From positions 2,861,390 to 2,925,389 of the forward strand of contig NC_061061.1 of the NCBI RefSeq assembly GCF_021917145.1: a stretch of DNA of 64,000 nt. Direction: 5' to 3'. Positions 41,934 to 63,641 of the stretch are shown here, one piece after another; within the stretch, counting starts at the first letter, position 1; each line of letters begins with the position of its first letter. The notes under the pieces were generated by a model. It saw only the letters and a list, made by a program, of their open reading frames with translations, was not told the DNA's origin and did no database searches. The stretch comes from Hypomesus transpacificus. Lineage: Eukaryota; Chordata; Actinopteri; Osmeriformes; Osmeridae. The position numbers were made by a program, and so were the translations under genes.

Positions 41934-44016
41934 CAAGTTTCGATTTTTTTTTCTTAAAAAAGCATGGATAAGTCACAGGAAAGCATGAACATGTTTGAGT
42001 TCTAAAAACTACAGATTTGCTCTGTTCCAAGGACTTACATTCCCCTTCAGCTAAACCACCAAAATATTCTTCAGAGGGTAAGAAAGAACGCTACCAAATG
42101 GACTGTCTCCAGAGGGACTTACATTTAACATGATTTGCTCTACAAAAGGATTGAACACAGCAAGTGATAGAAGAGTATATTTTCTAAAGTGGTAAGAAAG
42201 CATTACAAACTCTGTTGATAACGAATGCAATTGTGAACAACATTGTGATGACTCTGATAAAAGCCTGAAAACATACTGGAATTAAAACATCAATGTACGT
42301 AGAATCACAGGAAACAGTCCCTACTTTACAAATAAATTATGGTAGACCTTGTACAAAAGACAAAAGATACACCCCTATGAAAGAAATGCCACATACACTG
42401 AAACAGCTGCCTTTGATAAATACATCTTTAAAAACAGACCATTATTATATAACAGATCTGAGCTAGCTTCACATTGTTCCCATTGGCTGGGCAAGAATGT
42501 ACACCAATAGTAGGGATGGATGGACATGCTGTGTCTGGACATTCTTCATACAATCATACAAGAGGTCTTTTGTCTCACTGTAAAGAAAGAACGAACAAAA
42601 CCTGAGATACAAATACCAAAGCTTGTTCTACAACAACTTTGCAAATCAATCACGATTTGAACGCAAAAAGAACAAAAAGGGGAGTCAATTCTACCGACAG
42701 CGGACTAACAGGGAGCTGTCTTTTGTACTCAACAATGCATTAAAAGAAAAGAAGTGAAGGAACAATAAGGGCATGTCATGGAAAATGGGCCACGCCATTT
42801 TTAAGGTGTACAAAACCAAGAAAAGATGATATGTTAACCTATAATAGAGTGGATGGATTTCAATAACTTAAAAACCTCATTTTGTACAAATACTATAAAA
42901 GCATTAATCCTATAAAATAGAGTAGCATTTTAAAATAGATTTCAATCGAAAGTTTACAAAAAAGGTGTACTATTAGTACAGTACATCTGTTTACTTGGCT
43001 GGTTGTGGAAGAGACAAAATATTTTATTAGTATTTTACCTGAGCAGAGAACTAAGCCAAACAGCAGTCCAGATTTAAGCATGAAACACCTCAGTTCAATA
43101 CTTCATGGTGAGGTATATCATTTGAATAAAAGTCCTAACTGCTCATTAATCATAGTAAACATGTAAACAAGGAAGGAGTTCCCTTATAAACAACCCTGTG
43201 TATTGAAATACGGTTATTTCAATTCAAGTACTATCATTACTTATAAGCTCCCCCCAAAGATTGCTTTTAATATAAAACCAGCCAGTAAAATGTCTAGAAG
43301 TACTGACAAAAGACGCGAAAACCAATGGACAAGATGGTGTTGATAAGCATTTTTAAACCAAAAAGGGACAGAATCATCTTTAAACTGAAAACTTTTTTCC
43401 ATCTACAAAATAAAAAAAGTTAAAATGGTGTTTTATACACCCGACTGAAGATATGAGACGAGTTGTCAGAGTATACAAGAAGCTGAGACGAGTGGTCAGA
43501 GTATACAAGAAGCTGAGACGAGTGGTCAGAGTATACAAGAAGCTGAGACGAGTGGTCAGAGTATACAAAAAGCTGATACGAGTGGTCAGAGTATACAAGA
43601 AGCTGAGACAAGTGGTCAGAGTATACAAGAAGCCACGCGTGAGTTCAGAAAAAAAACCTTCAGAATAGACAGGACAGCACCGTGGAAACAAAGGGTTCGA
43701 CGACAATCACGACGCTCCACACAAGTGTGGAAGTCTTCGCCTGTAAGGGCTCAAGCTCTTGCCTGTCTCAAACTGCCTCGGCAGGATAGACAGGATTCCG
43801 GAGCAGAGCAGAGACAGTATGGCGCCGGCCGTTTCTGGGTGACAATGACGAGTTTTCTTCTCCCTCTCAAGGTGGCCGGCTTGGTTTGTATCAGATCCAT
43901 AGGGCTTGTTTACTTTGAAGCCTTAGCAGGTGGGGGGATGAGGGTGATGTTGATAGAGTGAGAGAGAGGAGGATGATAAGGACTGTCTTACGGAGTTGGC
44001 TTGTTTCCTGGCCTGG
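41934..44016 (-). other. Probable 3' UTR of the protein 4.1-family gene
   Basis: About 2 kb of AT-rich sequence without coding potential lies between the last plausible coding exon and a minus-strand AATAAA (complement TTTATT at 41934-41939). It includes a six-copy 30-bp tandem repeat at 43456-43635. The extent is inferred. Confidence 0.5.
43456..43635. repeat. Minisatellite: six copies of a 30-bp unit
   Basis: Six head-to-tail copies of AGACGAGTGGTCAGAGTATA plus ten more bases, with few substitutions. It lies in the inferred 3' UTR of the protein 4.1-family gene. Unit length is a multiple of three, so open frames on both strands are by-products. Confidence 0.95.
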
Positions 44017-45198
44017 TTAATCGGCTCCTTGATCTGAGATGTTCTTCTTCAGGTTGTCCTGCAGCTCTCTGATTGGCTTTAACTTCTCCAGTGTGGGTGG
44101 GTGGGGGGTGGGGGGGCTCTTCTCACAGAAGCTGGAGGTAAGGGGGGTGGGGGGGCAGTTGAAAGCAAAGCCAGGTGGCAGGGAGTCAGATCACATGGAG
44201 TCCGCTCCCCCGTCACTGCCCTACAACACACAATGGAAGAACCAGTTACAACCGAGGACCGTCAGATACGTCGAACGACAATTCACGTCAAAGGCCTCAC
44301 GGTCCTCCGCGTCCGCAGAGAAACAATCGGGGGTCCTTCACGTCAGATCGGACGTTCACCAGCGTACCTGCTCTTGCTCCACTGTCTCAGAGTCTGCCGT
44401 GATGACGATTCTCTTCTCCACGCGGGTCTCTGAAGAGCCGCCCTTCACCACCTGAGGCAGAGCAGAGAACACATCCCCATGCAGGATGTCAGACCAATGC
44501 CACAAGGAGAAGAACGTTTTTTTTTTTTGAAGGAGATAAGAGTGTTCCTTACCTTGGAGATGTGGGTGGTCGTGGTGGTGACCGTGGTCCCACTGGTGGT
44601 GTCTGAGGTGATGGTCTGCATGCTGGCCAGGGACACTCCATCTTTGTTCCCGTCGATCCCATCCGTCTCCACCTGAGAGGGAGGGGGGAAAAGACCCGGA
44701 GTTACGGACGAGTACCACCATCCCGAACCGGGGAAACCTCCTCCGGGCCGACCTCAGCTTCCTAGTCCAGCCGTCCTAGACGGGACTGATCTTTAGCCAG
44801 GCCAGCGTTGCTGTCCTCCTCATAGTAAGAGGAACCAGGAGCCACCGCAGAGGCTGCGCTGTTGGGAAGTGTCCAGGGTGGGGGTGTGGGAGAACCGGGC
44901 CGTGGAGCCCCTACCTGTGCAGACTCATAGGTGATAGTCTTGCTCTGGGTCTGGACAATGGGGACGACCCTGGTGGTGGTGCCAGCGGGGAGGGAGTTGG
45001 AGGAGTCTGAGATGGTGACTGTGTGCGTCTGCACCAGGGGGGGCTGTGGAGGGGAACACACCCAGGAGAGGGGGGGGGGGGGTCTTACAGGATCTCCCAC
45101 AGCTCCGCCCCTCCCCGTTCAACACACACACACAGCCTCACAGACACACACACACACACAGCCTCACACACACAGAGCCTCACTCACACACACAGCCT

Positions 45199-45234
<36 letters not shown>

Positions 45235-48200
45235 GACATCACTCCAGCCCAGTCATCGGTAAAAACCCTCCTCATGCACAGAAATCATCCCCCTCCACCA
45301 CCACCACTTCACCTATTCATTTGCTGATTAGATCCCAGAAAGGTCTGGAAAGGCTACCGTGAGTGCCATGCCGAAAACACTTCACACCACCCACCACCAG
45401 AGGGCAAGAGAGGAACAGGGGGGGAAAGCCCTTCCCACAAAAAAGCCTGAGAATGATGCCAGTCCCAAATCAGTGTGAAAGAGAGGGAGTAAGAGAGGGA
45501 AGCCAGGAGAACAGGTGAGATAGAGAAGTGGCAAAGGAGTCTCCGACAGCATAGAAGCCCATCACCCGAGTTGACAGTACTCGTCGCACAGTGTGCGCTC
45601 TCTCTGTGGCATGCTGTAATAGTTCACCCATGCTGCCGACCGCAGACCCCGTGCAGTGACTGAAGATTCGTCCGGAGGGATTTGGCCCCAGCCTTGCCCT
45701 GCTGGGTCTAGCCAAGGTGCAGAGGATCAGGAAGCAACCCAAGAGAACCCGACCGAGGCCAAGCAGAGCTGAGCATCACCAGCACTTTGACGGGCGGAGG
45801 GGGCTACCTTGAAACAGCGAATGACTTGGGGACCACCGCCCACGAAATAGGAGGCATGGGAGGCCCCGGCTATCCTGACAGACTGCTCCAGGCTGGGGTC
45901 TGTATCCTCCTCCTCCACCACCTCCACCTCCTCCACCTCCTCCTCCACGGCTGGGCAGGAGGGCTGATAGGGGTTGTGGGGGTTGTGGAGCCGGGCCAGT
46001 TCCACCTCAACGATGGGCACGAGGTTGTTCCCAGAAACCACACCCTCATCCTCGTCCCCTGACTCCGCCCCTTCAGGTGCATTGTGGGACTGAGCCCCAT
46101 AGGGCCCACCGGCGTTTGGGGTCATGTTGGGGTCGGGGAGAAGAGCCCCCCCCACACTGAGGCCGGCCTCCTGCACTGCCCTAGTGGGGGACTCATCCCT
46201 TACAGGGGTAAAGCATACACTCTAAAAGAAACACACACACACAGGTAATCAGTGTGTGTGTGTGCATGCGAGTATGAGAAGGTGAGATTCACGTTGGAGG
46301 ATGTCGGTGGGAAAATTGACAGAGCAGAGCAGCACACAATTCAAGCATTTTCAACGTAGACAGTTATTCAACATAGCTGGACAGGTTTTTTTATACTGAC
46401 AGCTTCTTTCAAAATTGTCATGTTCACCTGAAAGGTCTTTATTATGTTGGTCAAATTTGATTGTCAAAAGGTCATGCAACAAGATGACAAAAGTGATATG
46501 TTTTTTTTCAATAATAACTACTAGTGAATACTAAATAGGTATCAAATGCGTCCTCACAGTGAGTTATATTTGATCATTTGAGCAAGTTCTTCTTTGCAAA
46601 TGTATTGCCTTAGCAAGTTCTAGCATGTAACCTAGTCTTGTGAGGTTTGGGTGCCACATGATATGATTGTAGGTGACGCTCTACATATTGAAATATACAA
46701 CGTGATTCTGAATGTTCATTCAAATGAGTTCCAGACAAATCACTGTGTTACTGGTCATGCCACCAATCACGTGTTAACCACATTAAGGAAGAAAAGGTGA
46801 GACAATTGACACCTCTGATTGATTGATTGTGTGTACAAAAAACATGTTCTGCAATTGACACCTGCACAAAAAAAAAATCTTAGTAAAAAAGTCAATTGTG
46901 ACAACATCATTGCCAGACAACTCAAAATAATGAAGTCCAGATCGTGAAAAAGTAAAGAATTAAGAGTAGAGCGGGGTTTGGGGTCGTACGGAGTCCTTCC
47001 GACTAGTCTTTGAAGCACAAGTCCGTCACAGCCGGAGGGGAAAACCCGGCGAGCGAAGGTGTGACTCCAGAGCCAGAACCAGGCCGCCTCACCAGGACGG
47101 GATGAAGAGGGGGAAGGGTGCAGCAGTGACGGTGCAGAAGAGGGGAGGAAGGAGAAGGAGGAAGTTGATGGGCAGATGACAGGGCAGGCCACGCCCCCTC
47201 TCTGGTCCTGCCGGTCGGGACAGGCCCCGCCCCCACTCAGCTGCGCTTGGAGTAGAAGTCTAGGAGAGGCCCGCGAGGGAGGCGGAACACAAACTGAAGG
47301 GGGGAGGGCGGAGGGGGGCGAGAGGGGTAGGAGAGGAGGGGGGGGGGGAGGTGGAGAAGAAAAAGCGAGGGGAGAGAGATGACAGTTGGAAATGCTTGAA
47401 ATGACTGAGGTGAAAGGCCGTAAGTCCATTCTTCTTTTGTGCCCCTGCCGACAGTGTCTTATGTGCGCCTCCTAAACCTGCCATGCACAGAGGCACCTGT
47501 TCTTCAGACTGTCAACAGTAGCTTACTAGTATCCAACCACTCCAAAACACGTTAACCCAGAAACCATATGCACTTGTGCTTTTAAAAAGGGGAGGTGGTC
47601 AATGGATAGGCATGAATGTCATTCGGGTCTTGGTGTCATAACTGAAAAGCTGGATCATGAATCACAAACAAGGTCCTACATGAGACACAGCTCGGTATGG
47701 AGAGAGCTAAGCAGCTACAACAGAGCATGCTAATAACTGGTGGAGGTCCATCCGAGCTATCATTCAGATTCGAGTGTCGCACATGCCTGTGTGGGTTGGT
47801 GTCAGGAGAGGGAGAGCTGGGGGTTTAGGCCGCTAAGAACGAGTGGCTTTTTCCACACTCCTAAAGAGGGGGGAGGACGGAGGGTAGGCCTGGGGACTGA
47901 GGGCCAGGGCCGGGCATCGAGGCATCAGGCAGGGAGGCAGGGGAGTGTGTGTGGGGGGGGAGGGGGGAGAAGAGGAGGGAAAGGGGAGAGCAGGTGAAAA
48001 AGCTTGATAAACAAGGAAGTGAAGAGAGTATAAGCACACCGGTCGGCCTCCCATCTCCTCCTTGGGAAAACGTAAAGAGGCTGGGCTCATCTGCAGGTCA
48101 TGCAAGGGCAAGTTTGTCTGTCCACCATGCGAGGAACGAAGGCTCAGAAACAGCCAATGAGGAGGCGGCTACAGGGCTGGACTTCCTACAGGAAGAGGAG

Positions 48201-49126
48201 GAAGTAACCAGCTACATGTAGCTAGCTCAGTGACTCAATGAGTAGTAGCAGGTGCAGACACCTCTAGCATCCCAACGCTTCGAAAGAAGCTTCTCAGCCC
48301 GTTCAGCAGCATTCTATAGACATGCACCTGCCTTACGTCACATGCCGAAACCACATGAACGTCCGACGTGCACGTGTTAATAATGCACATGCTGACAAAT
48401 CTAAAAGCCGGGCTCCCGAGAACGACTGGGCCACAAAAGATACAGAAAGAGAAGAAGAAAAAAAAAGTGTTCAAGTCCCGCCCTCGCTTGGTCCATCCAA
48501 ACGAGAGCACCGCACACAGACTCAAGCAGGAGTGACAGCCTTCCACGAGGGGCCAGTGCAGTCTGTGGTATTCAACCCATCACATCCATCTGGGTAGAGA
48601 GATACCGTGACGTGATACCGTGACGTGTGTGCTTTACCAGAAACTCCATTTATGCTTCCGTCCAATTCAGGGGCTGACTCAAAACAAAACTGAAAATACG
48701 ACTAGTATAAAAAAAATATATATCTGTCCCCCTGAATTGACTCGGAAGTGAAAATGGCCTGGTTCCCCCGAGCCTGAGGAACGCCCGTGGGGTCCAGAGG
48801 ACGGAGGGTCAGACTCACCCCGTCTGCGCCGGCCAGGGACTGGCCGTTGACGCCCGCGCTCCGGAAGGGGGAGTGGGTGGACAGGCGCTTGTCCCACTCG
48901 CTGGGGCGCTGCTCGGGGACAGACTGCATGAAGTTCCTCTTCAGCTCGCTGATGCTGGCGTGGTGCCTCAGCAGGTCCTCCTGGGGCTTCTCAAACTCCT
49001 GTGAGGGGGGGGTGATGAGAGAGAGGGAGGTAGAGAGAGAGAGAGAGGTAAAGAGAGAGAGGTAGAGAGAGGGGGGGTGATGAAGGGGAGAGAGAGGGAG
49101 GTAGAGAGAGAGGGGGTGATGAAGGG

Positions 49127-49984: not shown

Positions 49985-52900
49985 AATATATATATATATG
50001 TTTGATTAATGATTAGACAATCATTAGACTTATTTGGACAAAGCAGCAGGGGAGTAACTTTGCTGGTTGGTGCCCGTTGAAGCTAGTGTTAGAGCTGGGC
50101 TGGGCTGGGCTCTGGTTGGTGCCCGTTGAAGCTAGTGTTAGAGCTGGGCTGGGCTGGGCTCTGGTTGGTGCCCGTTGAAGCTAGTGTTAGAGCTGGGCTG
50201 GGCTGGGCTCTTCCAAGTATGGAGGGCCAGACTAAGGCCTTATTAGAGAGCAGGGAAGGACACTGCTGTCCTCTTCTCAATGCTACTGCAATGACGGAGT
50301 GCATGTTTAGTGAGCTCTAAAGGAGGGGGGGGATCAAGAAGCAGTCTGCAGTGGTTCTGTGGAACTAGGGAAATACAGGGGGGGGGGGGGGGTAAGAGTT
50401 GATTCACATTGATTATAAAAACAGATTCACTGCTGGATTTGCTTCCGGATAGATCATTGTGGGCGTACGACCCTGTTGCATAAACATGTAGCATCAGAGC
50501 TGGCAGACGATTGACAAGATACGGGCATACACATCACAGAGAATGACAGGTGAAGTTAGCAGACATGACCGCTCAGCCCTCTGAGGCCGGGGCTAATGGG
50601 GATGGAGACTTGACAAGCAGCGGCAGCGGCGGCAGTAACAGCAACATGGGGGGGGGATGACCGTCATAACTTATTCATTAAACTGCAGAAATATATGACT
50701 GGGCAAAAACACCATCCAGGCTTGGCTCATTTATAGCCCTGAGGCTAACCTCAAGCGCAGGGTGTAGAGGCACTGGGCCTAGTCTGGAAAGATGACGCGC
50801 AGTGTGAAAGGTTTTACGCTGGGCTGGGAGTAGTGATGAGATGGGCTGCTGATGGGATGGCAAGGGGAGGCGGGGCGGGGGGGGGGGGGGGGGGGGGGGG
50901 GTAGAGCAGGCAGGCTAAACGAACAGACCAGCTCAACAGTTTCAGAATGGAGCCCATTCACCTTGAATACTGGTGCGGAACCTGCACAGGAAAGGCTTTC
51001 AAAAGTAAATCATGAGGCTTTTTCCAGCTATGCCCTTGCCCATTCATTCAGCCAGATATAGATGATATGAGATAGAGGATCATAACGGGACCTAACGACG
51101 CCACTGCCTTAGCATGCAGCTCGTTTATGGCGCTAGATGGATATATTGCGGACAAGACCACAATCCCAATCATATACTTTGCAAGCAGCTCAACAACGTT
51201 CCCCTGAAACAAGTAGCCATGTTAGAAGTTAATGGCGCCACGCACAATACAAAATTAAAATGATAGGTTATGCGGTCGAATCAATCTAATAGCAAAATCA
51301 AGGATACCAGTGTCAAAAGTGAGAATTGGGCCACATGCAAAGCGTACGGCACAGCAGCCATTGAGACAGAGCAGGAAAACACGGCACGAGGAGAAGAGAT
51401 CTCTAGGGATACCAACCTCCAACATTAAAAGGCTATGTCTGATATAAATTGAGTCACCCTCAATTCTCCTAGCTCTTTTCTGTGAAAAACGAAAGAACAA
51501 ACAAGACAAACAAAACAAAGTGTGGGTTTTCAGAGATTTCCATGCGTGACATGGCAGTGTGTCACGACCTGGACATGCATGGTTACTGTTTAGCACACGG
51601 ACGTGCACTAGGGTAGAGTAAAGTCGAGTTGTCAGCATGCAGGGGCCTCAGGGAACCCAGGGGGGCCCCCAGAGAACAGGAAGGAACCCTAGGTGAGCAA
51701 GGCAGGAGACCTGGAGTCCTCTAACTACAGTCGGTGTTAAGACGGCATTCAGAAGAGTGCAGCGGCGACAGTAACAGCCCTCGGAAAATAAACATAAGTC
51801 GTCATCTACAACAGTTCAAAACCTCAAACCAGTCACGGGTGAAACGGACATTCCACGGTTTTCAAACGTGCGATGACCCATTTCGAAAACCTCTTCCGAA
51901 GATCATTCAACACAGGCTTAAGTCACATCCTGTGCCTTAAAAACACGAAGCACTGTTCTAATGGTTTGTCTACACGGCAAAAGGGGGGGGGGGGAGGAGA
52001 GGGTGAAGATTAGTCTGACGGATGGACAGGAGGAGTCGCGTCAGGATGAGGGGATGGAGACACGATGGAACTAAAGCACAGCCGGGACTGAGGTATCTGA
52101 CCTTGCGCATGCGAACCTGCTCCGTGCTCGTGTCCTCAGACTAGCGTTCCCCCGGGGGGCGGGAGAGGGGAGAGAAGGACACACGTTAGCATCCTCCGCC
52201 AGCTTCGAGCCGCCGGCTGCACGCTACGCTCGGAGGCGTTTACGTGCGTGAAGGCCCCCCCGAGTCTGACACTAACCTGAGGCCAAGTCTCCCCATTGGT
52301 GGTGGCTGTTACCGTGGAGACAGCCTCTCTCTGCTGCCTCCCCGCTGCTGTCTACAGCAGCAAGAGAGACAGGTCACACTCAGACACAAGGAGGACCGGG
52401 CTACACTCAAACACCTCAGAAAGGGGCCGTCCTTGCGATAGCCACAGACTGGCAAGTGGACACACTTTGTACTAATCAAACTATCTAATCAACCTACCTC
52501 AAAGTACTGTTACTCGTAGCCAGTAACTACACGCTAAATACTCTCTGTAGGTAATTCGCTGTATCCAACATGCAAAGACAACAGTTATGCAACGGTATGT
52601 TGTACTACAATTTTATTTGATAGTCATTGGCGCTTTAACGCTTCAGGCCAGTGTGTATGCGGGGGAGAAAGTGAGATCCATGAAGGGGTGCAGCTGCTGT
52701 ACCTTGACCTCGCCGTCTGGTCTGGAAGGCTCCACGGCCTCTACGGTGACCTCCAGCTTCCTGTCCTCCGGGCGTCCGGGCCTGCTGATGGGGGTGGAGG
52801 TCTGGGGCTGCTCCAGGGGGGTCATGGGGATGCCGGCCTCCATTAGGGCGGCCTGGGAGAAGACCGGGGCGCTGACGGGGCGGGCGCCTCGCTGGGTGCT

Positions 52901-55900
52901 CACCACTGGGGGGCAGAGAGACGGAGGGGGAGAGGGGTGAGGGTGGAGGAATGGAGAGGCCGTGTCGGGGCGGCGGGGGAGGGGCAGTCCACGCGCGTGG
53001 GACTGTCCCGGCCCACTGAGAGGCGGTCCGGTTTGAGCGCGCGCGCGCACAGACGGAGGGTCACGACATCTTACCTCATGTTGACCCCTCAGCGCACATA
53101 CGGGGCCCGCGGAAGCATACTGTACCTTCTCAGCCTCGCGGGCGCCGGAACGTTCCGTTTGAGGGAGGCTAGCGAGTGGAGAAAGGAGTGAGCTGGAAGC
53201 AGGTGCCCACAGTTGGGTGGGCAGCACGGCATGGTCAGCACTTCTGTCTCAACCACGGACGCACGCAGAGAAGTTGTCGTGACCCACTGAGTTAAATAGC
53301 ACAAGCCTGAGTGTGGTGAGTCAATGTTCCTACGGCAGGCTAAAAATTAATTCAACAGTTCTTCAATGAGCAGGGCAAAGCATTCACCCCAAAAGGTCAT
53401 GGGAATCATTCATGCCGAAGAATAATTCAGAAGACCAATTGAGATATTTTGGTTTTAATGTTTAGCTTAAGATCGTTTTTTTGTTATTTTGCAGCAAAGC
53501 AATGGTCACAACGAACTCAAGAGAGTTGGGTACCTGAGTCAACATCCAGCAAAACAAACCAGTCATCCACCACCTCTCTCTGTGCTTGTGGCTGCCTTTC
53601 TTCCAGAATTCTCTTCTCTAACATTGGTCTCTTCTCATCAGGCGCTGTAAGTCTGGGCTCTATGGTTGGAGCTTTGACCATAGGTGGAATGTCTGGGGAA
53701 ATCTGCAAGCGCTTTTGTACAGCTATTGAAAAAAAAAAAAAAAAAAAAATTCTCAGTGGACGAATCAGTGGATATGAATGATAGGTTACATGTTAAACAA
53801 ATGATGAAGAATACAATATACCTAGTCACCATCATTCATACTCTGTTTTTATTACGGGATGACAGGCCTTAGAATGTTAGAATGTTCTCATGGTTTCCAT
53901 GTGGAGCCGACTGATCGGGAAGGATTCTGAGGGTGTCGCTAGGAATACCTGATTCTTCGAGGGCAACTTCCAGCAAGATAAACCAATCGTCTTCCACATC
54001 CCTCTGGGGCTGAGGTACCCTCTGTGTGGGTATCTCCTGCGGTATCTCCTCTACTGTGGTGACAGTCTCCCGCACTCGCTGCTCTAGGGTTCGAACTCCG
54101 GCAGTATAGCCAGGTCTGACTTCACTCACTGCACAGAAACAGCAAGGTCAGACTGAACCATTCTGAAGAACCGATGTGCTGACGAAGATTCAAAATGCTG
54201 CTTTTATGAAAAGACTTTGGGGGGTGGATTGGGTTTCGGGGTGTTGATATTTAAACTGAATAATACATTTGTGTTTGATTAAAACATTTAAGACAATGTC
54301 TTAAAGCAATATAACAATATATGAGAGCCACAGTCAACTTTGGGATAGTGGGAGGTACCTTCAGGAATCCTAGGAGGTTCCTCGCGGATAGCGTTGAGGA
54401 GCACAAACCAATCATCTCCCTCCTCTCTTTCTACAGGTGGTGTTCTCTGCACCGCCACGACCTCAGGCTGATAGCTTTCCACGCCCACCAGCACCTTCTC
54501 CTCCTTCCACCCAGTCTCCTCAATCACCAACGTTCTCTCCTCCACAACCTCTCGTGCTGCTGCGAAGGCATAACGGATTAGTGTTGCTGAGGAAAAGAGA
54601 CGAGGTGAATCGCTGAAGAAAATAAATGGAAGTCAAATCCTAGCACCTGGGACAAAGGTCATCGTCTCCACGGGAACACGGTCCAACAGGATAAACCAAT
54701 CATCATCCACTTCTCTAGGTGTTGGTTGGGATACAACCCTCTGCTCCAGCTGAATGGTCTCTTCCACTATCTGCACTCTCCTGATTGGCTGTACGTCTAC
54801 TGGCCCCATCTCATGCTGGACACTCACTACAGCTGGAACCACAGCTGGTGCAACGGCTTCAAAAAACAACAACAATCGACTTATCGGAAACACGGCGAAA
54901 CCACAACAACAAGCGAGCCAGGAGTCATGTTGCCACAAGCTTTTCATGAACCTCAGATGCTAAGATCCCGTCAATTTACTGGAGGCCAATTAGGGCGAAA
55001 GCGTTGAACTGTAGAATACCTGATACTTTAGGTGCAACATCCAGTAGCACAAACCAGTCATCCTCCAGCTCTCTCAGAGGCTGCGGTGGTCCAGTCTCCT
55101 GGGGCCGGGCCAGAGGAGGGGCCACAGTCTCTTGAGGCAAACTCTCCACTTCTACCGTGGCTACTCTTGGTTCTGGTTCTATGGTTGACACGACCACACG
55201 CTCATCCAGACCAACTGATAAACAAGTAGAGAACAGCTTTCAGATGCGGCAGGGCGAAATGTAGGGTTGTTGCTAGGATGCTCGCTAGGGAAAACCGATA
55301 TGCTGATTCGTCACATTTGAGCCATAAAGAAAAAAGCTTTTGGTCTAGTTATAGATGCTTGGGTTTGGAGATAAGGGGGCTGTACTGTTTTTCCCAAACC
55401 AGGTGAATGAGACCCGTGTTTTGCAATAAGTTCCGTTGTATTAGCAAATGTTACCTGGTGGGGACACAGATGCTTCGTCACGGAAAGCCTCAAACAGAAC
55501 AAACCAGTCGTCTCCTTCCCTCCTCTCAGTTGGGGGAGACCTCTGGACTGGTGGAGACTCAGTTTGGAAGCTCTCGTCTACAATTTGCGCCTTCTTCAGT
55601 ATTGTCTTCTCTATGGTGACCGTCTCCACCACGGAGACGGTCTCAGTCACAACTCGAGAGACCTGAACGCGTTCCTCAGGAACGACTAAACAGAATCATA
55701 AACAAAACGTCATACTTCTGTATTCTGTTAGTCAGCAGGCCAAACACACACATGCTGGTTAGGCTTTGGAGACTTGAGGTGATGGGTTAAGTTTATCATG
55801 TTGAGAATCGGGATGGAAAGCAATGCTTTAGATACTGGGAGGTGAGATACATGGAGGTACGATAATCAGTTCTCTGGGAACCACATCCGACAGGACGAAC

Positions 55901-58900
55901 CATCAAATACGGGCAATGGGCTGACAGCAATGAGCACAAGCACAGAAAACTGGTGTTCTGGTGAATGGCGAGGCAGAGCAAGGGATTATGGGAATTATAC
56001 CTGGAGGTACATAAACCGGTTCCTCAGGAACAACATCCACCAATTCAAACCAGTCGTCATCTCTCTCTACCACTGGCTGGGACCGGGTCGTTTCTAGAAC
56101 AAGTGTGTCCTCTTCTTCTTGTAACTTGATCTCTTTAACCACAACTTCTCTCCTCTCTTCAACCACCCTAGAGATGGCGTCTTCTGTGACACGCTCCACC
56201 GAAGCAACTAGTGCACAGAGAATTAGAATCCTTAAACACAACACAGGGGCAACTGAGGAGCATTTGTGTAGAAAGCACACTGTAGCTTCTGTTTAGGAGC
56301 CATGCGAAGCATAGTAATACCTGGAGGTACATATGATGGTTCTCTTGGAATCACATCCAATGGCACAAACCAGTCATCTTCCATCTCCCTCACTGGTTGT
56401 GGATGGATCATTTCTGGCCTGGCCTGCTCTTGCGGTATTTCTCTCTCTTCAGTGACAACTTCTCTTCTCTCCTCTCGTCTCTCAATGACGTTCACCTCAG
56501 TTAGTGTTGAGATAGTGTCTTCTGCGACAGGCTCCACCAGTGCAGCTAATACAAAGAAACAGGATCTTCACAATCCAGCTATCGTACAACGCTGATGCTA
56601 AACGGCAAGCACCGGACAGTGGCTATTTTAGAGGCATGAAGAAGCGCAGCAGGGTCATAGAGTCGTACCTGGGGCTACGTGTGTTAGCTCTCGGCTAACA
56701 ACATCCAGTAACACAAACCAATCGTCTTCCATCGCTCTCAGAGGCAGCGGCGGTGCGATTTCAGACGGACGCCTCTCTGCCGGCTTTTGTAGCTCAATCA
56801 CCTCAACGGTCACCTCTCTTGTCTCCGCCTCTAACTCCTCCATCATAGAGACGGTTTTTTTTGGAGAGACCCGAACACGCTGATCCACAGACACTGATGA
56901 AAACGAGATGCAGAACCCGGAGGTATGAGAGCACAAAATGGCTGTTGGCAATTAGCATACAATGCACAAGGGAGGTGTAGTTCTTTGGTCTGGACAAAGC
57001 GACCACGGGCAGGGATTACATCTGCTTTACCTGATGGCATTACAGATCTGGGAACAACACCAAGCAGGATAAACCAGTCGTCGACTCTCTGAGGCAGCGT
57101 CTGGGCTGGTTTCTCCTGCATCTCTTCCAGCTCAAGCTGTATCTCTTCAGCTACAACCTCCCTTCTCTCCTCTGTCTGCTCAGCGGTCGTCACGTCAGTC
57201 CCAGCAGAGGGGCTGACCGCAGGATGTCTCTGAGCACCCTGCTCAAATGATGCTAAAACAAACGCACACCAAATTCCAGAAGACCGTCGGCTACATGGTC
57301 ACTGGAGTTATCCATAGCCAAAAACGAGTACTTTGTAATACTAGTTATATTTAATGACAGTTCATTCTATAGCAGCTAAATCAAGAGGTTTGGTTAGTTT
57401 TTGCAGAGGGTGTGCCTGTTAGCAATTTATATAAGCCAGTGTTTGGAGAGAGGGGTAAAGCTGGTATTTCCTAAAAGGAATCTGTGAAAACAGCTTCAAG
57501 CAAACAAGAGGCACAAACCTGGAGGAATTGGAACTGCAAGGTATGGAGGGCGGTCCAGGAGCACAAACCAATCATCTTCATCGGCCCTCTGGGCTTGAGG
57601 CATACTACGATCCATCGACTTCTCTTCCTCATATCTTTCCTCAACGTTGACTTCCTGCCCGAGTGTCCCTTCCTCTACCACTCCAACCCAGTTTGTGACC
57701 ACCACCCCCTCCTCTTGCTTCTCCACCTTACTAGTCTGCCACTGGCCCTCCTCTATCTCCCCCTGCCGTCGCCAGCTCTCCTCCACAATAGTGACTCGCT
57801 TCCGTGTCCTGCGCTCCACCCTTTTCACCTCAGACACTGAGCAGGTGCTGATGCCGCCTGTTCCCTCGCCCTGCAGCATCTGACGTTCCTCGTCCTGTGC
57901 TCCGTCTGGCAGCAAGCCCTTCAGGAACACCTCCTTTATCTGCTCCTCCAGCTCGTCCTCAGTCTTAACCATCTCCTTTAAGGACTCCACCTCCTCCTCA
58001 TCCTCCCCCAAGTCCATCTTTTCCACCTCTTTGTCTGACTGATCCTCTCTCTGCTGCCTGGTGTCTTCCGGCTCTTTGAGAACTTCTCCCTCTTTCTCCC
58101 CCTCCTCCCCGATATCCATTGGTTCTACCACTTCTTCCTGCTCCCTGATCTCTACCCTCCCTTCTTCCTCCTGGTCCTCCTCCCCGACCACCTCAGCCTT
58201 TCCCTCTTCCTCCGACGCCACGCCTTCCTTCTCCTCTTCCGCCTCCTTTGCCCTCAATTCCACCTCCAACACTTCCTGGATCCTCCCCTCTAACTGGTCG
58301 ACCTCCTGAAGCCGAGCTTCCAGCTCCAGCACCTCCCTCAGCCTCTCCTCCACCTCCTCCACCTCCCTCAGCTTATCCACCAGCACCACTCCCTCCCGCA
58401 GCCTCTCCATAACCTCCTCCCTGGACCGAGGCTCCTCCTCCTGCTCCTGCCTCGCCTCTCTGGCCCCCTGCTGCTCACTGCCCTGGGGCTGGAGTGGCGC
58501 AGGGGGGGAGACTGGAGGAACAACTTCAGTGACAACTTCTCTTCTCTCCTCTCGTCTCTCAATGATGTTCACCTCAGTTCGCGTTGAGATAGTGTCTTTT
58601 GTGACACGCTCCACCGAAGCAACTAGTGCACAGAGAATTAGAATCCTTATACACAACACAAGGGCAACTGAGGAGTATTAGCATTGAAAGCACGTAGCTT
58701 CTGTTTTGCAGCCATGCGAAGCATAGTAATATAGTAATACCTGGAGGTACATATGATGGTTCTCTTGGAATCACATCCAATAGCACAAACCAGTCATCTT
58801 CCATCTCCTTCACTGGTGGTGGATGGATCATTTCTACCCTGGCCTGCTCTTGCGGTATTTCTCTCTGTTGCGGTACAACTTCTGTTGCGGTATGAGAGCA

Positions 58901-61900
58901 CAAAATGGCTGACGGCAATTAGCATACAAAGCACAAGGGAGGTGTAGTTCTTTGGTCTGGACAAAGCGACCATGGGCAGGGATTACATCTGCTTTACCTG
59001 ATGGCATTACAGATGATACTCTGGGATCAACACCAAGCAGGATAAACCAGTCGTCGACTCTCTGAGGTAGCGTCGAGGCTGGTTTCTCCTGTATCTCCGG
59101 AGGTAGGCTCTCCCCTTCCAGCTCAAGCTGTATCTCTTCAGCTACAACCTCCCTTCTCTCCTCTGTCTGCTCAGCGGTCGTCACGTCAGTCCCAGCAGAG
59201 GGGCTGACCGCAGGATGTCTCTGAGCACCCTGCTCAAATGATGCTAAAACAAACGCACACCAAATTCCAGAAGACCGTCGGCTACATGGTCACTGGAGTT
59301 ATCCATAGCCATAAAACGAGTACTTTGTAATACTAGTTATATTTAATGACAGTTCATTCTACAGCAGCTAAATCAAGAGGTTTGGTTAGTTTTTGCAGAG
59401 GGTGTGCCTGTTAGCAATTTTGATAAGCCAGTGTTTGGAGAGAGGGGTAAAGCTGGTATTTCCTAAAAGGAATCTGTGATAACAGCTTCAAGCAAACAAG
59501 AGGCACAAACCTGGAAGAACTGGAACTGCAAGGTATGGAGGGCGGTCCAGGAGCACAAACCAATCATCTTCATCGGCCCTCTGGGCTTGAGGCATACTAC
59601 GATCCATCGACTTCTCTTCCTCATATCTTTCCTCAACGTTGACTTCCTGCCTGAGTGTCCCTTCCTCTACCACTCCAACCAAGTTCATGACCACCACCCC
59701 CTCCTCTTGCTTCTCCACCTTACTAGTCTGCCACTGGCCCTGCTCCCTCTCCCCCTGCCGTCGCCAGGTCTCCTCCACAATAGTGACTCGCTTCCGTGTC
59801 CTGCGCTCCACCCTTTTCACCTCAGACACTGAGCAGGTGCTGATGCCGCCTGTTCCCTCGCCCTGCCGCCCCTCGCCCTGCGGCGTCTGGCGTTCCTCGT
59901 CCTGCGCTCCGTCTGGCATCAAGCCCTTCAGGAACACCTCCTTTATCTGCTCCTCCAGCTCGTCCTCAGTCTCAACAATGTCCTTTAAGGACTCCACCTC
60001 CTCCTCATCCTCCCCCAAGTCCATCTTTTCTACCTCTTTGTCTGCCTCTTTCTGCTGCCTGGTGTCTTCCGGCTCTTTGAGAACTTCTCCTCCCTCTTTC
60101 TCCCCCTCCTCCCCTATATCCATCGGTTCTACTACTACTTCCTGGTCTCTAATCTCTACCACCCCCTCTTCCAGTAACTCTCCCTCCATCTCTTTCTCCT
60201 CCCGTGGCCTGATCGCAGCTACTGCATCTTCCTCCGCATCCTCCTCTCCCAAATCTATCGGCTCTATCGCTTCTTCCGCGGCCCTCCCCTCATGCTGCTC
60301 CTTGATCTCTAACCTCCCTTCTTCTTCCTCGACCACCTCAGCCTTTCCCTCTTCCTCCGACACCACGCCTTCCTTCTCCTCGTGCCCCTCCTGTGGCCTA
60401 AATTCCACCTCCAACACTTCCTGGATCCTCCCCTCTAACTGGTCGACCTCCTGAAGCCGAGCTTCCAGCTCCACCACCTCCCTCAGCCTCTCCTCCACCT
60501 CCTCCGCCTCCCTCAGCCTCTCCTCCACATCCTCCGCCTCCCTCAGCCTCTCCTCCACATCCTCCGCCTCCCTCAGCCTCTCCTCCACATCCTCCGCCTC
60601 CCTCAGCCTCTCCTCCGCCTCCCTCAGCTTATCCACCAGCACCACTCCCTTCCGCAGCCTCTCCATCACCTCCTCCCTGGACCGAGGCTCCTCCTCCTCC
60701 TCCTGCCTCGCCTCTCTGGCCCCCTGCTCCTCACTGCCCTGGGGCTGGAGTGGCGCAGGGGGGGAGACTGGAGGAACCAGAGGCATGTTGTCAGTACTTT
60801 AGACAGGACTAGTGGTGAAGACTTGCCAGGTGGTAGGTACTAGCTATATTCAGCGTCAGCATATTTGATAGGCGTGTAAGAACTCACATGGTGGAGTGTA
60901 TGAACGCTCGTAGGAAGACGCGTCATCGGTGCGGTCAAGCTCCCGGAACCAATCATCACGTTGATTGAGTCGTGGTTGTAACAACCTGTCAAGTTTGTCA
61001 AGCTTTGCGGAGCTGGGTTTGGCTGGAGACGTCACAGAAACACCTATTTTTTTTTTTGAAGGGTAGACTAGAATTTGTATGCATTCTTGTGCTATAGGTG
61101 CCACCCATTCATTTGATGGCTTTTACACCTAGGTTAAATGAAATGCAGGGTCACAATTCAACACTTTTAAAAGACGCCGAGGCAGAACCTGAAACATAAA
61201 ATATACCTGTCGTAGGGTAGCGATACCGAAGAGATGTCGTAGGGTCAGGAATAAAGGGAAGAGAGGGCCGTCGACGTAGCAGTAAATACCACTCCTCTTC
61301 CTCCTCCTCACCTTCCTCCTCCTCCACTCTCCCCTGCTGCAGCGCATCAGACGCCCGTCCCTCCCCTGATTGGCTGATAGTTTGAGTGACAGCCTGTCCT
61401 TTCTCAGTTCCCTCCCACGTCTGGGTGACTGTTTGGACAGACTGCTCCCGAGCTGTGAATAGAATATGTGGATGATCCTGAGAGAGATCATATCAGGCCA
61501 TGGCAGCATTCTGGCGGTCTTTCAGACCCCGGCTTTGACGGTGGCCGCTACATGTAGCAGTTATTATGCTCTGTAAACCGAAGCTCGCACAAAGCACATG
61601 AAAGGAGTAGCAGCATGCTTATTTGAAGATTCACACAGTCGAGCCCTGCAGGAGACGGCCCCGGTGTCCGCAGAGCCACAAGCAAGACCAACGACGCGGC
61701 TGAAATGGGACAGATGACTTCCGCGCCGGCGAATTTCAAAAGGGCTGAATCGGAACGTTCCGGCGTAGTCACAGGACGACTCGTTCCAGCGGGTCAGCGT
61801 TCAAGAGCGGGGGGGGTGCACACATAACAGGAGGACCGAACGCTGGTCCCAGACCTGGGCGTCTTCAGTTGCAGAAACGGCAGCCTGTTTGGAGAAGCTC

Positions 61901-63641
61901 ATGGTCTTGGCGGGAAAGCGCAAGCAAACGAGCGTTAGGTCATCGGCGAGACGCGACGCAACAGAACAAGGCCAAAAAAAAAGAGCTGAGAAGCTAATGT
62001 TAGCGATGGGCGCAGTTGGGTGTGACAGAGATTGAGACGGCGTTGTGAAGAGCCGCTCTGCCAGACAGAACCGTCCATGATAACCGGACCCGCCCTGGGG
62101 TTAGACGGGGGGGCGGGTGACCAGCTCAGGAGAGGCCGGTGACCCAAGGTGACCCCAGTGTCGGGGCCGCAGCGATGACACCCACAGGGTGAGGGTAAGC
62201 GTGGCAACAGAGAGAAACATCAACAGAAGCGTTTCAAAACAAGCCGAAGTGCAGCGACCAAGTCCAATGAGGGTCCACACGGTACCTGAGGATGGGCTGG
62301 GCCGTGGTCGCTCTGATTCCAGCAATAGGAACCAATCATCCAGCTCAGTCCTGTTTGGGGTTGAGAGCTGCAGGCTTTGGGAAGAATCGTCCTCAACGGC
62401 TACAAGAGTGGGAGAGGTAACGTACAGGATGGTCCTGTGGCCTTAAACGCACGCACGCACACACACAGACAAACGCACACACACTAACCTCCGTCGATGG
62501 TGCGGGACAGCCTCTTGCTGGCGGAGCGCGTGAAGCGCGGGGCGGGGCGGTCGATCATGGAGCTGGCGTGGCGGGTCTGGGCCTGGGTGCGCCCGCTGTA
62601 ACGGAACTTGGAGCCCAGCCCCAGGAAGCGGCGGGACGACGGCGGCTCCACCGTGGACACCCTGCGGGAACATGACCAAACGACTCAGCCAAAAGCGGGA
62701 ACCCTCCACCACGCCTTCCTGTACCGACGGGGCTCAACTCGAGCCGCCGTGACGGGCCAGACCGACGAGGCGAATCACCGTGACCGAGGTGAAGCGTCCA
62801 GCTGTAAACCTCAGTCACGTTCCTCCAATGTCACGGTGCCAGCCGCTCGGACGAGGTGGCCGGTGTCACGTAACGAGATTACGCCGACCTCCAGGTGCCT
62901 CCGTGACATGTCACATAACATGTCACGTAGGCGAGACCTTAAGAGATTTCATTCTGGGCCTCGGGACACACAGCGGGTGCTACGTGGAGATACCGTCGAT
63001 GGTTTAAATGGCCACGCTGCCTAATAGAATTACTCCATGAGAGGTTAAGCCGCGGGGGGGGGGGGGCTATTAGCCAATTAGCATCAGGGTCGCCTGAGAA
63101 GGGGCCTCTGTTGTCAGGCAGGTCAAGGGGAGGGGGCATGGCCTCACCTGAAGAAGGTGTGGTTCTCCACAGACACCTTCCACAGCTTCTTGGAGGCTTT
63201 GTAGTTGGGCAGCTTGAAGCCAATGGTGCTCTCGTACTGCTCCTGCTGCAGGGGAGGGGACACAAGCGTCACATGACTCGTCCTCTTACCCCAGTTCTTA
63301 CCACATCCTCATGTGGTAAGAATCCACATCCACGTCCTCTTACCACAGTTTAACAGCACATATGTTCCCATTGTATTGATACTAGTGAGAAAACAAATAT
63401 ATATGTGTTTGTTTTTTTATCATTACACATCGGATTAGGCGGAGGGTTTCAACGGGAAAAAGCATGATGGCGCGGTGCCTTGCACTACCTCTGACGGTCG
63501 GATCTTGATGAAGAAGCTACTGCGCTTGTAGGAGATCTTGAGGACTTTGGGCCAGGGGAAGCGATTGATCCTCAGCTTGTCCTTGTAGACCATTAGCCCA
63601 CCGGAGCACACCCCCAGCATGATATCTACACCCTCCAGGTC
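44017..63641 (-). CDS. Protein 4.1 (band 4.1/EPB41) family member with 17 tandem DDWF exons, partial at 5' end
   Basis: In transcript order: FERM C-lobe exons 63489-63641 ([20 protein letters not shown]) and 63148-63245; FERM-adjacent exon 62489-62661 ([15 protein letters not shown]); 17 repeat exons between 62399 and 53534 (separate entry); 52703-52905; 52277-52351; 52102-52140 ([13 protein letters not shown]); 51417-51479 and 48819-48998 (spectrin-actin-binding); 45808-46221 (acidic, perhaps optional); 44915-45043, 44553-44672, 44368-44451 (C-terminal domain). All junction phases agree, giving about 2,360 codons. The N-terminal FERM lobes lie beyond base 64000. The protein should link spectrin-actin to membrane proteins at the cortex. 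The last coding exon is uncertain: 44191-44220 or 44017-44121 both join in frame, but neither encodes the ALA-IKEA-type end of known 4.1 proteins. The 4.1R/G/N/B paralog is not resolved. Confidence 0.85.
44368..45043 (-). CDS. C-terminal domain exons of the protein 4.1-family gene
   Basis: Three phase-0 exons (44915-45043, 44553-44672, 44368-44451) encode the conserved 4.1 C-terminal domain: [68 protein letters not shown], then [18 protein letters not shown]. In known 4.1 proteins this domain binds NuMA, 14-3-3-interacting and membrane partners. The following canonical exon was not found. Confidence 0.9.
45120..45232. repeat. (AC)n / CACACAGCCT compound repeat
   Basis: An AC-rich compound repeat lies in the intron upstream (in transcript sense) of exon 44915-45043. 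Confidence 0.9.
45808..46221 (-). CDS. Large acidic candidate exon (138 codons) of the protein 4.1-family gene
   Basis: The open stretch has a good acceptor (TTCTTTTAG, exon from 46221) and donor (AAG|GTAGCC, to 45808), and is phase 0 at both ends, like its neighbours. It encodes an acidic segment with [12 protein letters not shown], a run [16 protein letters not shown] and a Gly-rich end. Long inserted exons between the spectrin-actin-binding and C-terminal domains are known in some 4.1 paralogs, but I cannot match this one. It would be skippable in frame. Confidence 0.55.
46222..48818. other. Introns of the protein 4.1-family gene
   Basis: No exon that I could support. G-rich and purine-rich stretches lie at 47290-47370 and 47930-47995. 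A short frame near 47245-47270 (acceptor CCTCTCCTAG, then FYSKRS and a stop) could be an alternative terminal exon, but the support is thin. Confidence 0.4.
48819..51479 (-). CDS. Spectrin-actin-binding domain exons of the protein 4.1-family gene
   Basis: Exon 51417-51479 is 63 nt and encodes 21 residues including [15 protein letters not shown]. It corresponds in length and sequence to the regulated exon 16 of human EPB41, which supplies part of the spectrin-actin-binding site. Exon 48819-48998 (180 nt) follows with [19 protein letters not shown] and [16 protein letters not shown], the most conserved part of the domain. Both are phase 0. The 2.4-kb intron between them holds the purine tracts described separately. 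Confidence 0.92.
49008..49730. repeat. Long polypurine (GA)n/(GAGG)n tract
   Basis: About 700 bases of almost uninterrupted purines on the + strand, mainly AG with GGGGTGATGAAGGGG interruptions recurring roughly every 60-130 bases. It starts just upstream of the 48819-48998 exon. The many long open frames here are composition artefacts. Confidence 0.95.
49949..50000. repeat. (TA)n microsatellite
   Basis: An alternating TA run of about 50 bases with a short CACAAA interruption, in an intron of the protein 4.1-family gene. Confidence 0.9.
50063..50209. repeat. Minisatellite: three copies of a 49-bp unit
   Basis: Three identical copies start at 50063, 50112 and 50161 with CTGGTTGGTGCCCGTTGAAG, each ending in a GGGCT triplet run. 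They are intronic. Confidence 0.95.
50500..51416. other. Intron of the protein 4.1-family gene
   Basis: It includes a G run of more than 20 bases at about 50878-50901. Nothing else was recognised. Confidence 0.5.
52102..52905 (-). CDS. Linker exons between the DDWF array and the spectrin-actin-binding domain
   Basis: Exon 52703-52905 begins in phase 1, accepting the last DDWF exon, and ends in phase 0 ([17 protein letters not shown]). It therefore marks the switch from the phase 1-1 array to the phase-0 C-terminal half. Exons 52277-52351 ([10 protein letters not shown]) and 52102-52140 (VRMRK end) follow in phase 0. The last joins directly to the 63-nt spectrin-actin-binding exon. Confidence 0.7.
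55845..55910 (-). pseudogene. Decayed DDWF repeat unit
   Basis: Between the exons at 56001-56207 and 55455-55685, the minus strand reads a [12 protein letters not shown]-like segment followed by a PP-like end. It has lost the DD dipeptide and the 5' part of the unit, and no acceptor is seen. It is a relic of an eighteenth unit. Confidence 0.55.
57519..58622 (-). CDS. Chimeric long DDWF exon (1,104 nt, 368 codons)
   Basis: The first 35 or so codons ([25 protein letters not shown]) match the start of the short units at 56001-56207 and 56321-56545. After [11 protein letters not shown] the exon becomes a copy of the long exon at 59511-60767. In that copy the splice acceptor lies exactly at the VPP|VSPPAP point, whereas here the reading runs through. 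The exon therefore appears to be a fusion of a short-unit head with a long-unit body. It ends in [12 protein letters not shown] like its partner. Confidence 0.82.
59511..60767 (-). CDS. Long Glu/Arg-rich DDWF exon (1,257 nt, 419 codons)
   Basis: The exon starts with [15 protein letters not shown] and continues as a charged, probably helical region. An internal ten-residue tandem repeat ([10 protein letters not shown], four to five copies at about 60480-60625) is followed by acidic runs ([28 protein letters not shown]) and a basic patch ([13 protein letters not shown]). It ends with [13 protein letters not shown] coiled coil is likely in the repeated part. The homologous exon is 57519-58622. 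Confidence 0.85.
61460..62280. other. Intron between the first two DDWF exons
   Basis: No exon or element recognised. Several antisense open frames exist but lack splice support or similarity. Confidence 0.5.

Follow-up and report, generated by a model that had tools for sequence, protein, structure and literature searches.

A 17-exon DDWF array in a fish protein 4.1R-type gene and its candidate role as a docking ladder

In the smelt Hypomesus transpacificus, a 64,000-nt stretch of contig NC_061061.1 (RefSeq assembly GCF_021917145.1, positions 2,861,390 to 2,925,389; hereafter the window) carries part of a protein 4.1R-type gene in which 17 consecutive exons, nearly all with a DDWF motif near the 3' end, lie between the FERM-adjacent (FA) and the spectrin-actin-binding (SAB) exons. 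This raised the question of whether such an array is a genuine part of the gene, and what a membrane-skeleton protein might do with so many copies of one short peptide. A sequence-only reading had proposed a splice-adjustable extension that could serve either as a spacer or as a series of docking sites. We observed the anatomy of the array, its breadth among fishes, the conservation pattern of its motif, its predicted disorder and one spliced contig, and we consider it probable that the array is a spliced, functional part of a fish protein 4.1R-type gene that acts as a docking ladder.

Anatomy and splicing of the array

The array comprises 17 minus-strand exons (D01 to D17, 62399..53534) of 114 to 1257 nt, each divisible by three and each with phase 1-1 boundaries. 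The host gene lies on the minus strand with its 5' part beyond the window, and going by the names of its relatives it is probably epb41b. FERM and FA exons precede the array and the SAB exon follows it, at a place otherwise occupied by a single phase 1 junction (F3 to S1). When the 25 exons of the model were joined they gave one open frame of 2,076 codons, the remaining two frames containing 94 and 100 stops, and the number, phases, divisibility and position of the array exons as first read from the sequence were thus borne out. The array takes up 5,244 nt, or 1,748 codons, of this model, a correction to the earlier estimate of about 1,780 residues. The expectation that each exon would carry DDWF[V/I]LLD held for the DDWF core in 16 of the 17 exons (D02 has EEWY) and failed for the complete form, which occurs only in D04, D06, D07, D09, D13, D14 and D17 (7/17). 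DDWF codon strings number 16 on the minus strand of the window and 0 on the plus strand; in a control set of 200 Markov-1 sequences the mean count was 0.115 and no sequence had more than 1. From the motif Trp to the end of its exon the distance is 27-84 nt. Most array exons encode about 40-80 residues each and the two giants, D04 (1257 nt) and D07 (993 nt), encode 330-420, with long E-rich sequence preceding the motif; the array as a whole (1,747 residues) has a net charge of -235.

Pfam identified FERM_C (1.6e-29), FA (4e-19) and SAB (3.7e-24) in the model. The remainder of the protein is represented in P0003, a database model of H. transpacificus LOC124472933 (isoform X15), which contains the FERM N-lobes that fall outside the window and for which the C-terminal domain (PF05902) was precomputed; its C-terminal part maps to 45046-44368. 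P0003 has every model 8-mer of F1-F3, D01-D06, D11-D14, D16, D17, S1, S4 and S5, and 0.88 of those of D15. It lacks D07-D10, D06 being joined directly to D11 with the frame kept, which may reflect either splice choice or a difference in assembly, and it also lacks S2 and S3. Two boundaries differ, the start of D15 lying 27 nt later (54559) and that of D03 21 nt earlier (61043). The 5' end of D07 is uncertain, either 58511 or 58622, because a D10-like exon head lies in frame upstream of it. This head directly adjoins the D04-like giant (58622..57519, minus strand), apparently through unequal crossing over, and a fused exon of 1104 nt would still be divisible by three.

Duplication, loss or skipping of an exon leaves the reading frame intact, every exon being frame-neutral. 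Evidence of splicing came from a 3,750-bp contig (P0124) in which a single 1,085-aa frame runs without introns through ten units, S1-type, SAB and C-terminal sequence. Since the equivalent stretch of the window spans about 15 kb with many introns, the contig is either spliced RNA or, less likely, a retrocopy. It thus provides the downstream part of the joining on which the sequence-only reading had staked its case, linking units to SAB and C-terminal sequence; the contig does not reach the FA exon, and the junction on that side lies outside it. Whole-unit skipping between isoform models of one locus, these being database predictions and not RNA, was found in eight of 14 isoform sets picked from the listed hits (Gasterosteus, with an N-truncated isoform, was not counted). 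The models of Larimichthys (two different pairs), Etheostoma, Plectropomus and Trachinotus skip two units and those of Salmo skip three; in Perca flavescens, Anarrhichthys and Acanthopagrus latus the skipped part is a block of 419-474 residues that contains one or two units. Together with the four exons that P0003 skips, these models agree with the proposal of a modular, frame-preserving U2 insert that splicing can shorten.

Spread among fishes and conservation of the motif

Three protein searches returned 319 hits at E <= 1e-3 (the best 120 of 319 were listed), 16 at E <= 1 and 105 at E <= 10. In each, scoring was confined to the 7,989-7,998 candidates with the most shared words, and the E <= 10 search was blind to single-unit proteins (the gar protein, with three units, scored E 0.12), which limits what these searches say about tetrapods, lobe-finned fish and sharks. 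Among the matches listed, all that were organism-named are from ray-finned fish, and one cluster (P0183) is also mammal-labelled in nr. The array is therefore no isolated oddity, as had first appeared; it is present in public protein records of many ray-finned fish, including zebrafish protein 4.1b, under source names such as titin-like, trichohyalin-like, uncharacterized protein, band 4.1-like protein 2 and protein 4.1b.

We counted units with a profile in 34 rows picked from 214 (213 proteins and the window model), the counts being lower bounds that depend on isoform and score threshold. The window has 17, Polymixia 14, Salmo 13, Danio rerio 4.1b X2 and Albula 10 each, Ictalurus and Hoplias 7 each, Anguilla 6, Salminus 5 and Trichomycterus 4; outside the teleosts, Amia (bowfin) has 9, Acipenser 4, and Lepisosteus and Atractosteus 3 each. 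A second Osmerus eperlanus 4.1 protein, on a separate contig, has 4 units. In a tree of FERM sequences (14 rows) the six array-bearing euteleost copies formed one clade (100/100) with the second Osmerus 4.1 outside it; six of the 20 chosen rows, all otophysan, had been dropped for want of an anchor, the base was unresolved, and eel and bonefish were unplaced. From these data we tentatively infer that 3-4 units are ancestral and that one teleost copy expanded, as did bowfin separately, though counts are low in catfish and characins.

To ask which residues have been kept, we drew motif statistics from 326 units less than 60% identical, taken from 1,406 unit windows. The profile was motif-seeded and the figures lean towards the motif; identical 32-residue windows were merged, so that bowfin has 7 units in this set versus 9 in the unit counts. 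W is at position 0 in 325 of the 326 units, a count inflated by the seeding, D at -2 in 93% and at -1 in 85%, F or Y at +1 in 93%, L, I or V at +3 in 285 units, L, F, M, I or V at +4 in 313, and D or E at +5 in 79%. A looser pattern (248 units) gave W in 98% and F in 2%. Exon S1 alone served as a motif-independent anchor, from which the last unit (the D17 position) was read in 62 non-redundant proteins: W was present in 61, F in 60, L at +3 in 61 (the other having I) and D at +5 in 59, the only protein without W being that of salmon. Motif columns carry 3.6-4.2 bits of information and upstream linker columns mostly 1.5-3.5, with a few reaching 3.9; S1 is as conserved as the motif. The first unit, adjoining FA, is looser, a D-W form occurring within 75 residues in 43 of 60 rows, often as DDWSLML. 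Across the window units the motif codons are synonymously variable, with five Leu codons at +3 and both GAT and GAC at both Asp positions. When window units were compared with their best matches in salmon, opah, barramundi, zebrafish and bonefish, identity was 0.63-0.77 in the motif versus 0.32-0.46 in the linker (local alignments, not all orthologous, with giant exons excluded and units scoring below 60 dropped). Because the Trp motif has been kept while the linkers diverged over long time, the choice that the sequence-only reading had left between spacer and docking falls in favour of a docking ladder and against a plain spacer.

The structural predictions are consistent with a short linear motif. 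In an AlphaFold2 model of the gar 4.1 protein (P0209), the FERM domain and part of the C-terminal domain were folded, while residues 497-735, which hold the three units, had predicted local distance difference test (pLDDT) scores below 50, and 528-774 had neither helix nor strand. For P0124, 964 of 1,085 residues had pLDDT below 50, its units among them. The predicted helices of this model lie at 20-28, 58-78 and 123-154, preceding the first units of DDWF type and within the giant-exon counterpart, and, close to S1 and SAB, at 816-821 and 925-943. Both alignments were shallow (33 rows for gar, 36 for P0124). On these models, each unit is most readily understood as a disordered segment bearing a short motif. 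A titin-like or otherwise folded repeat was rejected, no Pfam domain being found in D09-D17 (the exons scanned) and no fold in the AlphaFold2 models. An intramolecular mode, with the units docked on the FERM domain of the same protein, was also set aside, as the gar model gives the units no confident structure, a weak negative.

Growth of the array by exon duplication is visible within the window. Three young copy pairs (D04/D07, D05/D08 and D06/D10) match over their main stretches at 89.7-94.1% DNA identity. The two ends of the array pair one to one across species, D01 with the first unit and D17 with the last, as reciprocal best matches in Salmo, Lampris, Polymixia and Lates. The middle of the array mostly has no such match in salmon and spiny-rayed fish; zebrafish and bonefish gave 5 and 3 reciprocal best pairs, with small margins. 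The history of the array thus reads as exon birth and death around a constant motif. Separately, the open frame of a 3,987-bp jgi contig (P0125) appears to continue across in-frame introns that separate nearly identical units, which looks like a tandem expansion of very recent date.

Several observations weigh against the reading of the array as a functional, splice-adjusted docking ladder. The Trp is not absolute, Lampris having F in two units and S in one, and Salmo having S in D17. Six of the 14 isoform sets show no unit skipping, and some teleosts have few units (Trichomycterus 4, Salminus 5, Anguilla 6). Between smelts, motif and linker identities are near equal (0.92/0.88 and 0.91/0.87), so that the contrast between them appears only over long time. 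Finally, the ratio of nonsynonymous to synonymous substitution rates (dN/dS), a value near 1 for the motif across related species having been named in the sequence-only reading as a refutation, gave a divided answer in the eight exon pairs compared, all from window DNA: the young pairs gave 0.72, 1.24 and 1.08, while four of the five older pairs gave 0.27, 0.14, 0.30 and 0.27 at high dS, the fifth being saturated.

Candidate partners and competing explanations

In the mechanism that we propose, phase 1-1 exons would each append a disordered stretch ending in [DE]-D-W-F-hydrophobic-L-[LF]-[DE], and copy number would evolve through frame-neutral exon duplication and loss, from 3-4 (gar, sturgeon) to 17. 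With the FERM domain anchoring 4.1 on membrane proteins and the SAB domain anchoring it on spectrin-actin, the ladder would lie between the two; many copies of one docking peptide would gather a weak-affinity partner by avidity, and splicing would set the number of motifs displayed. That the motif binds a partner at all, and with it the function of the ladder, we infer from the pattern of conserved residues.

Two kinds of partner were considered. One is a domain, unrelated to the Atg8 family, that reads the whole WF-hydrophobic-LL core including Phe at +1 and Leu or Phe at +4, such as an adaptor of the cytoskeleton or of trafficking, or a groove accommodating a helix that has W0, L3 and L4 on one face; this branch of the ladder idea we hold to be a serious possibility, if somewhat short of even. 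In its favour, F or Y at +1 (93%) and L, F or M at +4 (95% of the 326 units) are constrained like +3, although the LC3-interacting region (LIR) by which Atg8 proteins are bound requires neither, and a 36-row alignment has no invariant columns other than D, W, F and the +4 Leu of a single unit. Simple known forms agree poorly with the units, however: the AP2-beta cargo motif [DE]x(1,2)Fxx[FL]xxxR was found in 34 of 326 units and the clathrin box in 9 of 326, and neither was retained. The AlphaFold2 models likewise give the units no helix or strand, though they were modelled without a partner.

The other is the Atg8 family (LC3/GABARAP), tentatively the likeliest single partner class, because W0-x-x-L3 after acidic residues has the form of a canonical LIR. 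In a canonical LIR an aromatic at 0 is followed by L, I or V at +3 and preceded by acid, binding is usually hindered by G, P, K or R in the core, an aromatic at +3 is tolerated, and I, L, V or F at +2 was compatible with LC3 binding in three tested proteins (PMC7615515). The core (aromatic at 0, L/I/V at +3) is present in 285 of 326 units, 15 of 17 in the window and 8 of 13 in Salmo; 284 of 326 also have D, E, S or T at -1 to -3, 274 in addition lack G, P, K and R at +1 and +2, and 253 have I, L, V or F at +2. The LIR form is found in all 3 gar units, all 4 of sturgeon and all 7 distinct bowfin windows, and the AlphaFold2 prediction supplies the disorder that an LIR requires.

The fit to an LIR is imperfect in several respects. 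Forty-one of the 326 units lack L, I or V at +3, some having an aromatic there; 5 of 13 Salmo units fall outside the LIR form; and among the picked unit-count rows showing a D03-type unit, that unit never has L, I or V at +3. The aromatic at +1, F or Y in 93% of units, exceeds what an LIR needs. Position +7 is mostly S, V, A or P (D in 7%), Pro is at +8 in 45%, and no helix is modelled at the units, so that the +7 acid and C-terminal helix of giant ankyrin LIRs are absent. Searched against PDB sequences, neither one unit nor a 16-row profile matched any chain at E <= 10, a weak negative given so short a query. Because +1 and +4 are as conserved as +3, and because of the Salmo and D03 misfits and the missing C-terminal helix, the Atg8 family stays tentative and a reader of the whole core is held somewhat more probable. 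The fullest form of the Atg8 proposal, a giant docking ladder of up to 17 motifs built by serial exon duplication mainly in one teleost 4.1 copy and separately in bowfin, is rather unlikely. If true, it could tie the spectrin skeleton to Atg8-coated membranes, with splicing setting the valency, and could link marginal-band microtubules via microtubule-binding Atg8 proteins.

Explanations other than a docking ladder survive less well. By analogy with mammals, the insert might modulate the spectrin-actin-4.1 complex and so alter skeleton stability in the nucleated, ellipsoidal red cells of fish, which we think unlikely. Human 4.1R carrying the alpaca e14 cassette together with the preceding PE peptide, but not PE alone, formed more ternary complex, and non-mammalian red cells are ellipsoidal (PMC9926112). 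The array lies on the same side of SAB as the alpaca cassette, and in channel catfish spleen nuclei an erythroid cluster (band 3, ankyrin, spectrin) shows raised epb41b, at the level of the gene and not of the array exons (PMC11426453). The alpaca effect requires exon 14, however, whose counterpart here is probably S2 and not the array.

About equally unlikely is non-adaptive growth, in which phase 1-1 exons, being frame-neutral, duplicate easily and surplus copies are tolerated; the young block duplication (dN/dS 0.72-1.24) and the wide variation in copy number among relatives agree with it, but it would explain the expansion and not the keeping of motif residues amid synonymous change. Least probable is an entropic spacer in which only length and charge matter and the motif is a relic of exon birth, as it would account for the predicted disorder, the net charge, the low-complexity giant exons and the length changes between lineages but predicts no site-specific conservation, whereas W is kept in 61 of 62 proteins at the orthologous exon while most linker columns drift.

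Relation to known systems and other features of the window

To our knowledge, human 4.1R has no DDWF unit at the corresponding place. A close comparison is the U2/V2 region of mammalian 4.1R (EPB41, exons 14-16), which belongs to the same gene type and has the same location between FERM/FA and SAB; the cassettes named there are of 19 and 21 residues, whereas the smelt array has 1,748 codons. Alternative splicing in the mammalian region changes skeleton properties (PMC9926112, PMC10887211). The fish array is a splice-variable protein 4.1 insert of a size and regularity beyond any mammalian one known to us. Zebrafish protein 4.1b (isoform X2) has the same array with 10 units, and in other fish the records are named titin-like, trichohyalin-like or uncharacterized.

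Titin is a name that several of these records carry. The PEVK region of titin is long, rich in Glu, Val and Pro, modular exon by exon and disordered, and the array resembles it in length, composition, modularity and disorder; unlike titin, D09-D17 match no Pfam family and the proteins named titin-like carry FERM, FA, SAB and C-terminal domains. In giant ankyrins, the Atg8-binding motif is of the acidic Trp type and lies in a giant exon. These proteins, giant ankyrin-B and -G, are likewise membrane-skeleton adaptors carrying an Atg8-binding motif (PMC7803741, PMC8727931). They have one strong LIR with a C-terminal helix, while the array has up to 17 short motifs, no +7 acid and often Pro at +8.

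In the open literature we found no description of the array and no name for the unit, and the motif letters occurred in no paper searched, subscription papers being mostly outside the search. Zebrafish 4.1R papers (Nunomura 2007, Murata 2010) may contain part of it; by their titles, the former reportedly concerns zebrafish 4.1R and the latter two unique cardiac isoforms of it, and Shafizadeh 2002 is said to deal with the merlot/chablis mutants.

In many fish a textbook membrane-skeleton protein, 4.1R, consists over a large part of its length of a repeat ladder, filed by databases as titin-like. The fishes offer a natural valency series, in which a single short motif is present 3 to 17 times at the same place of the same protein, and since the frame-neutral exons could be removed singly, what a scaffold gains from multiplying a weak docking motif could be tested in an animal. 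Were the partner an Atg8 protein, the erythrocyte skeleton would be linked to autophagy or microtubule machinery in animals with nucleated red cells.

Table 1. Exons of the protein 4.1R-type gene in the window (positions are those of the window)
Feature	Position	Strand	Basis
F1, FERM C-lobe exon	63489..63641	-	joined model; Pfam FERM_C
F2, FERM C-lobe exon	63148..63245	-	joined model; Pfam
F3, FA exon, phase 1 end	62489..62661	-	joined model; Pfam
D01, DDWFLLLE, phase 1-1	62286..62399	-	joined model; identical in P0003
D02, EEWYLLLR	61207..61452	-	joined model; P0003
D03, DDWFRELD; P0003 start 61043	60888..61022	-	joined model; P0003
D04, E-rich giant, DDWFVLLD	59511..60767	-	joined model; P0003
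D05, DDWFILLG	58998..59243	-	joined model; P0003
D06, DDWFVLLD	58741..58881	-	joined model; P0003
D07, giant, young D04-type copy; start 58511 or 58622	57519..58511	-	joined model; absent from P0003
D08, young D05-type copy	57031..57252	-	joined model; absent from P0003
D09, DDWFVLLD	56669..56893	-	joined model; absent from P0003; reciprocal best match in Osmerus
D10, DDWFVPLD	56321..56545	-	joined model; absent from P0003; reciprocal best match in Osmerus
D11, DDWFELVD	56001..56207	-	joined model; P0003
D12, DDWFVLFE	55455..55685	-	joined model; P0003
D13, DDWFVLLD	55020..55214	-	joined model; P0003
D14, DDWFILLD	54647..54856	-	joined model; P0003
D15, DDWFVLLN; P0003 start 54559 lengthens the preceding 60-nt intron	54359..54586	-	joined model; P0003
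D16, DDWFILLE	53949..54128	-	joined model; P0003
D17, DDWFVLLD, adjoins S1; unit of the motif-independent conservation test	53534..53722	-	joined model; P0003
S1, first post-array exon, phase 1 start	52703..52905	-	joined model
S2, optional exon; in P0001, not in P0003	52277..52351	-	joined model
S3, optional exon; not in P0003	52102..52140	-	joined model
S4, 21 codons; presumably the counterpart of mammalian exon 16	51417..51479	-	joined model
S5, SAB exon	48819..48998	-	joined model; Pfam SAB
Exon between SAB and C-terminal domain	45808..46221	-	tblastn extent
C-terminal exons (44912-45046, 44550-44678, 44368-44493)	44368..45046	-	tblastn extents

Elsewhere in the window, a 30-bp unit is repeated six times at 43454..43633, 3' of the last 4.1 exons found, and a 45-bp unit is present in twelve near-identical copies (98% matches) at 24926..25465 on the plus strand, with one frame open (open reading frame 24827-25699). 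Choline transporter-like coding material lies at 27042..27590 on the minus strand (Pfam Choline_transpo, 3.3e-6, right at the cut-off). The plus-strand open frame at 11379..12542 has a weak fibronectin III match (5.7e-5, under the Pfam cut-off), a 60-bp repeat lies at 11365-11493, and a minus-strand open frame at 34996..35421 resembles a V-set immunoglobulin domain (2.3e-5, slightly under the cut-off). A retroelement reverse transcriptase (Pfam RVT_1, 7.4e-14) is encoded at 382..885 on the minus strand.

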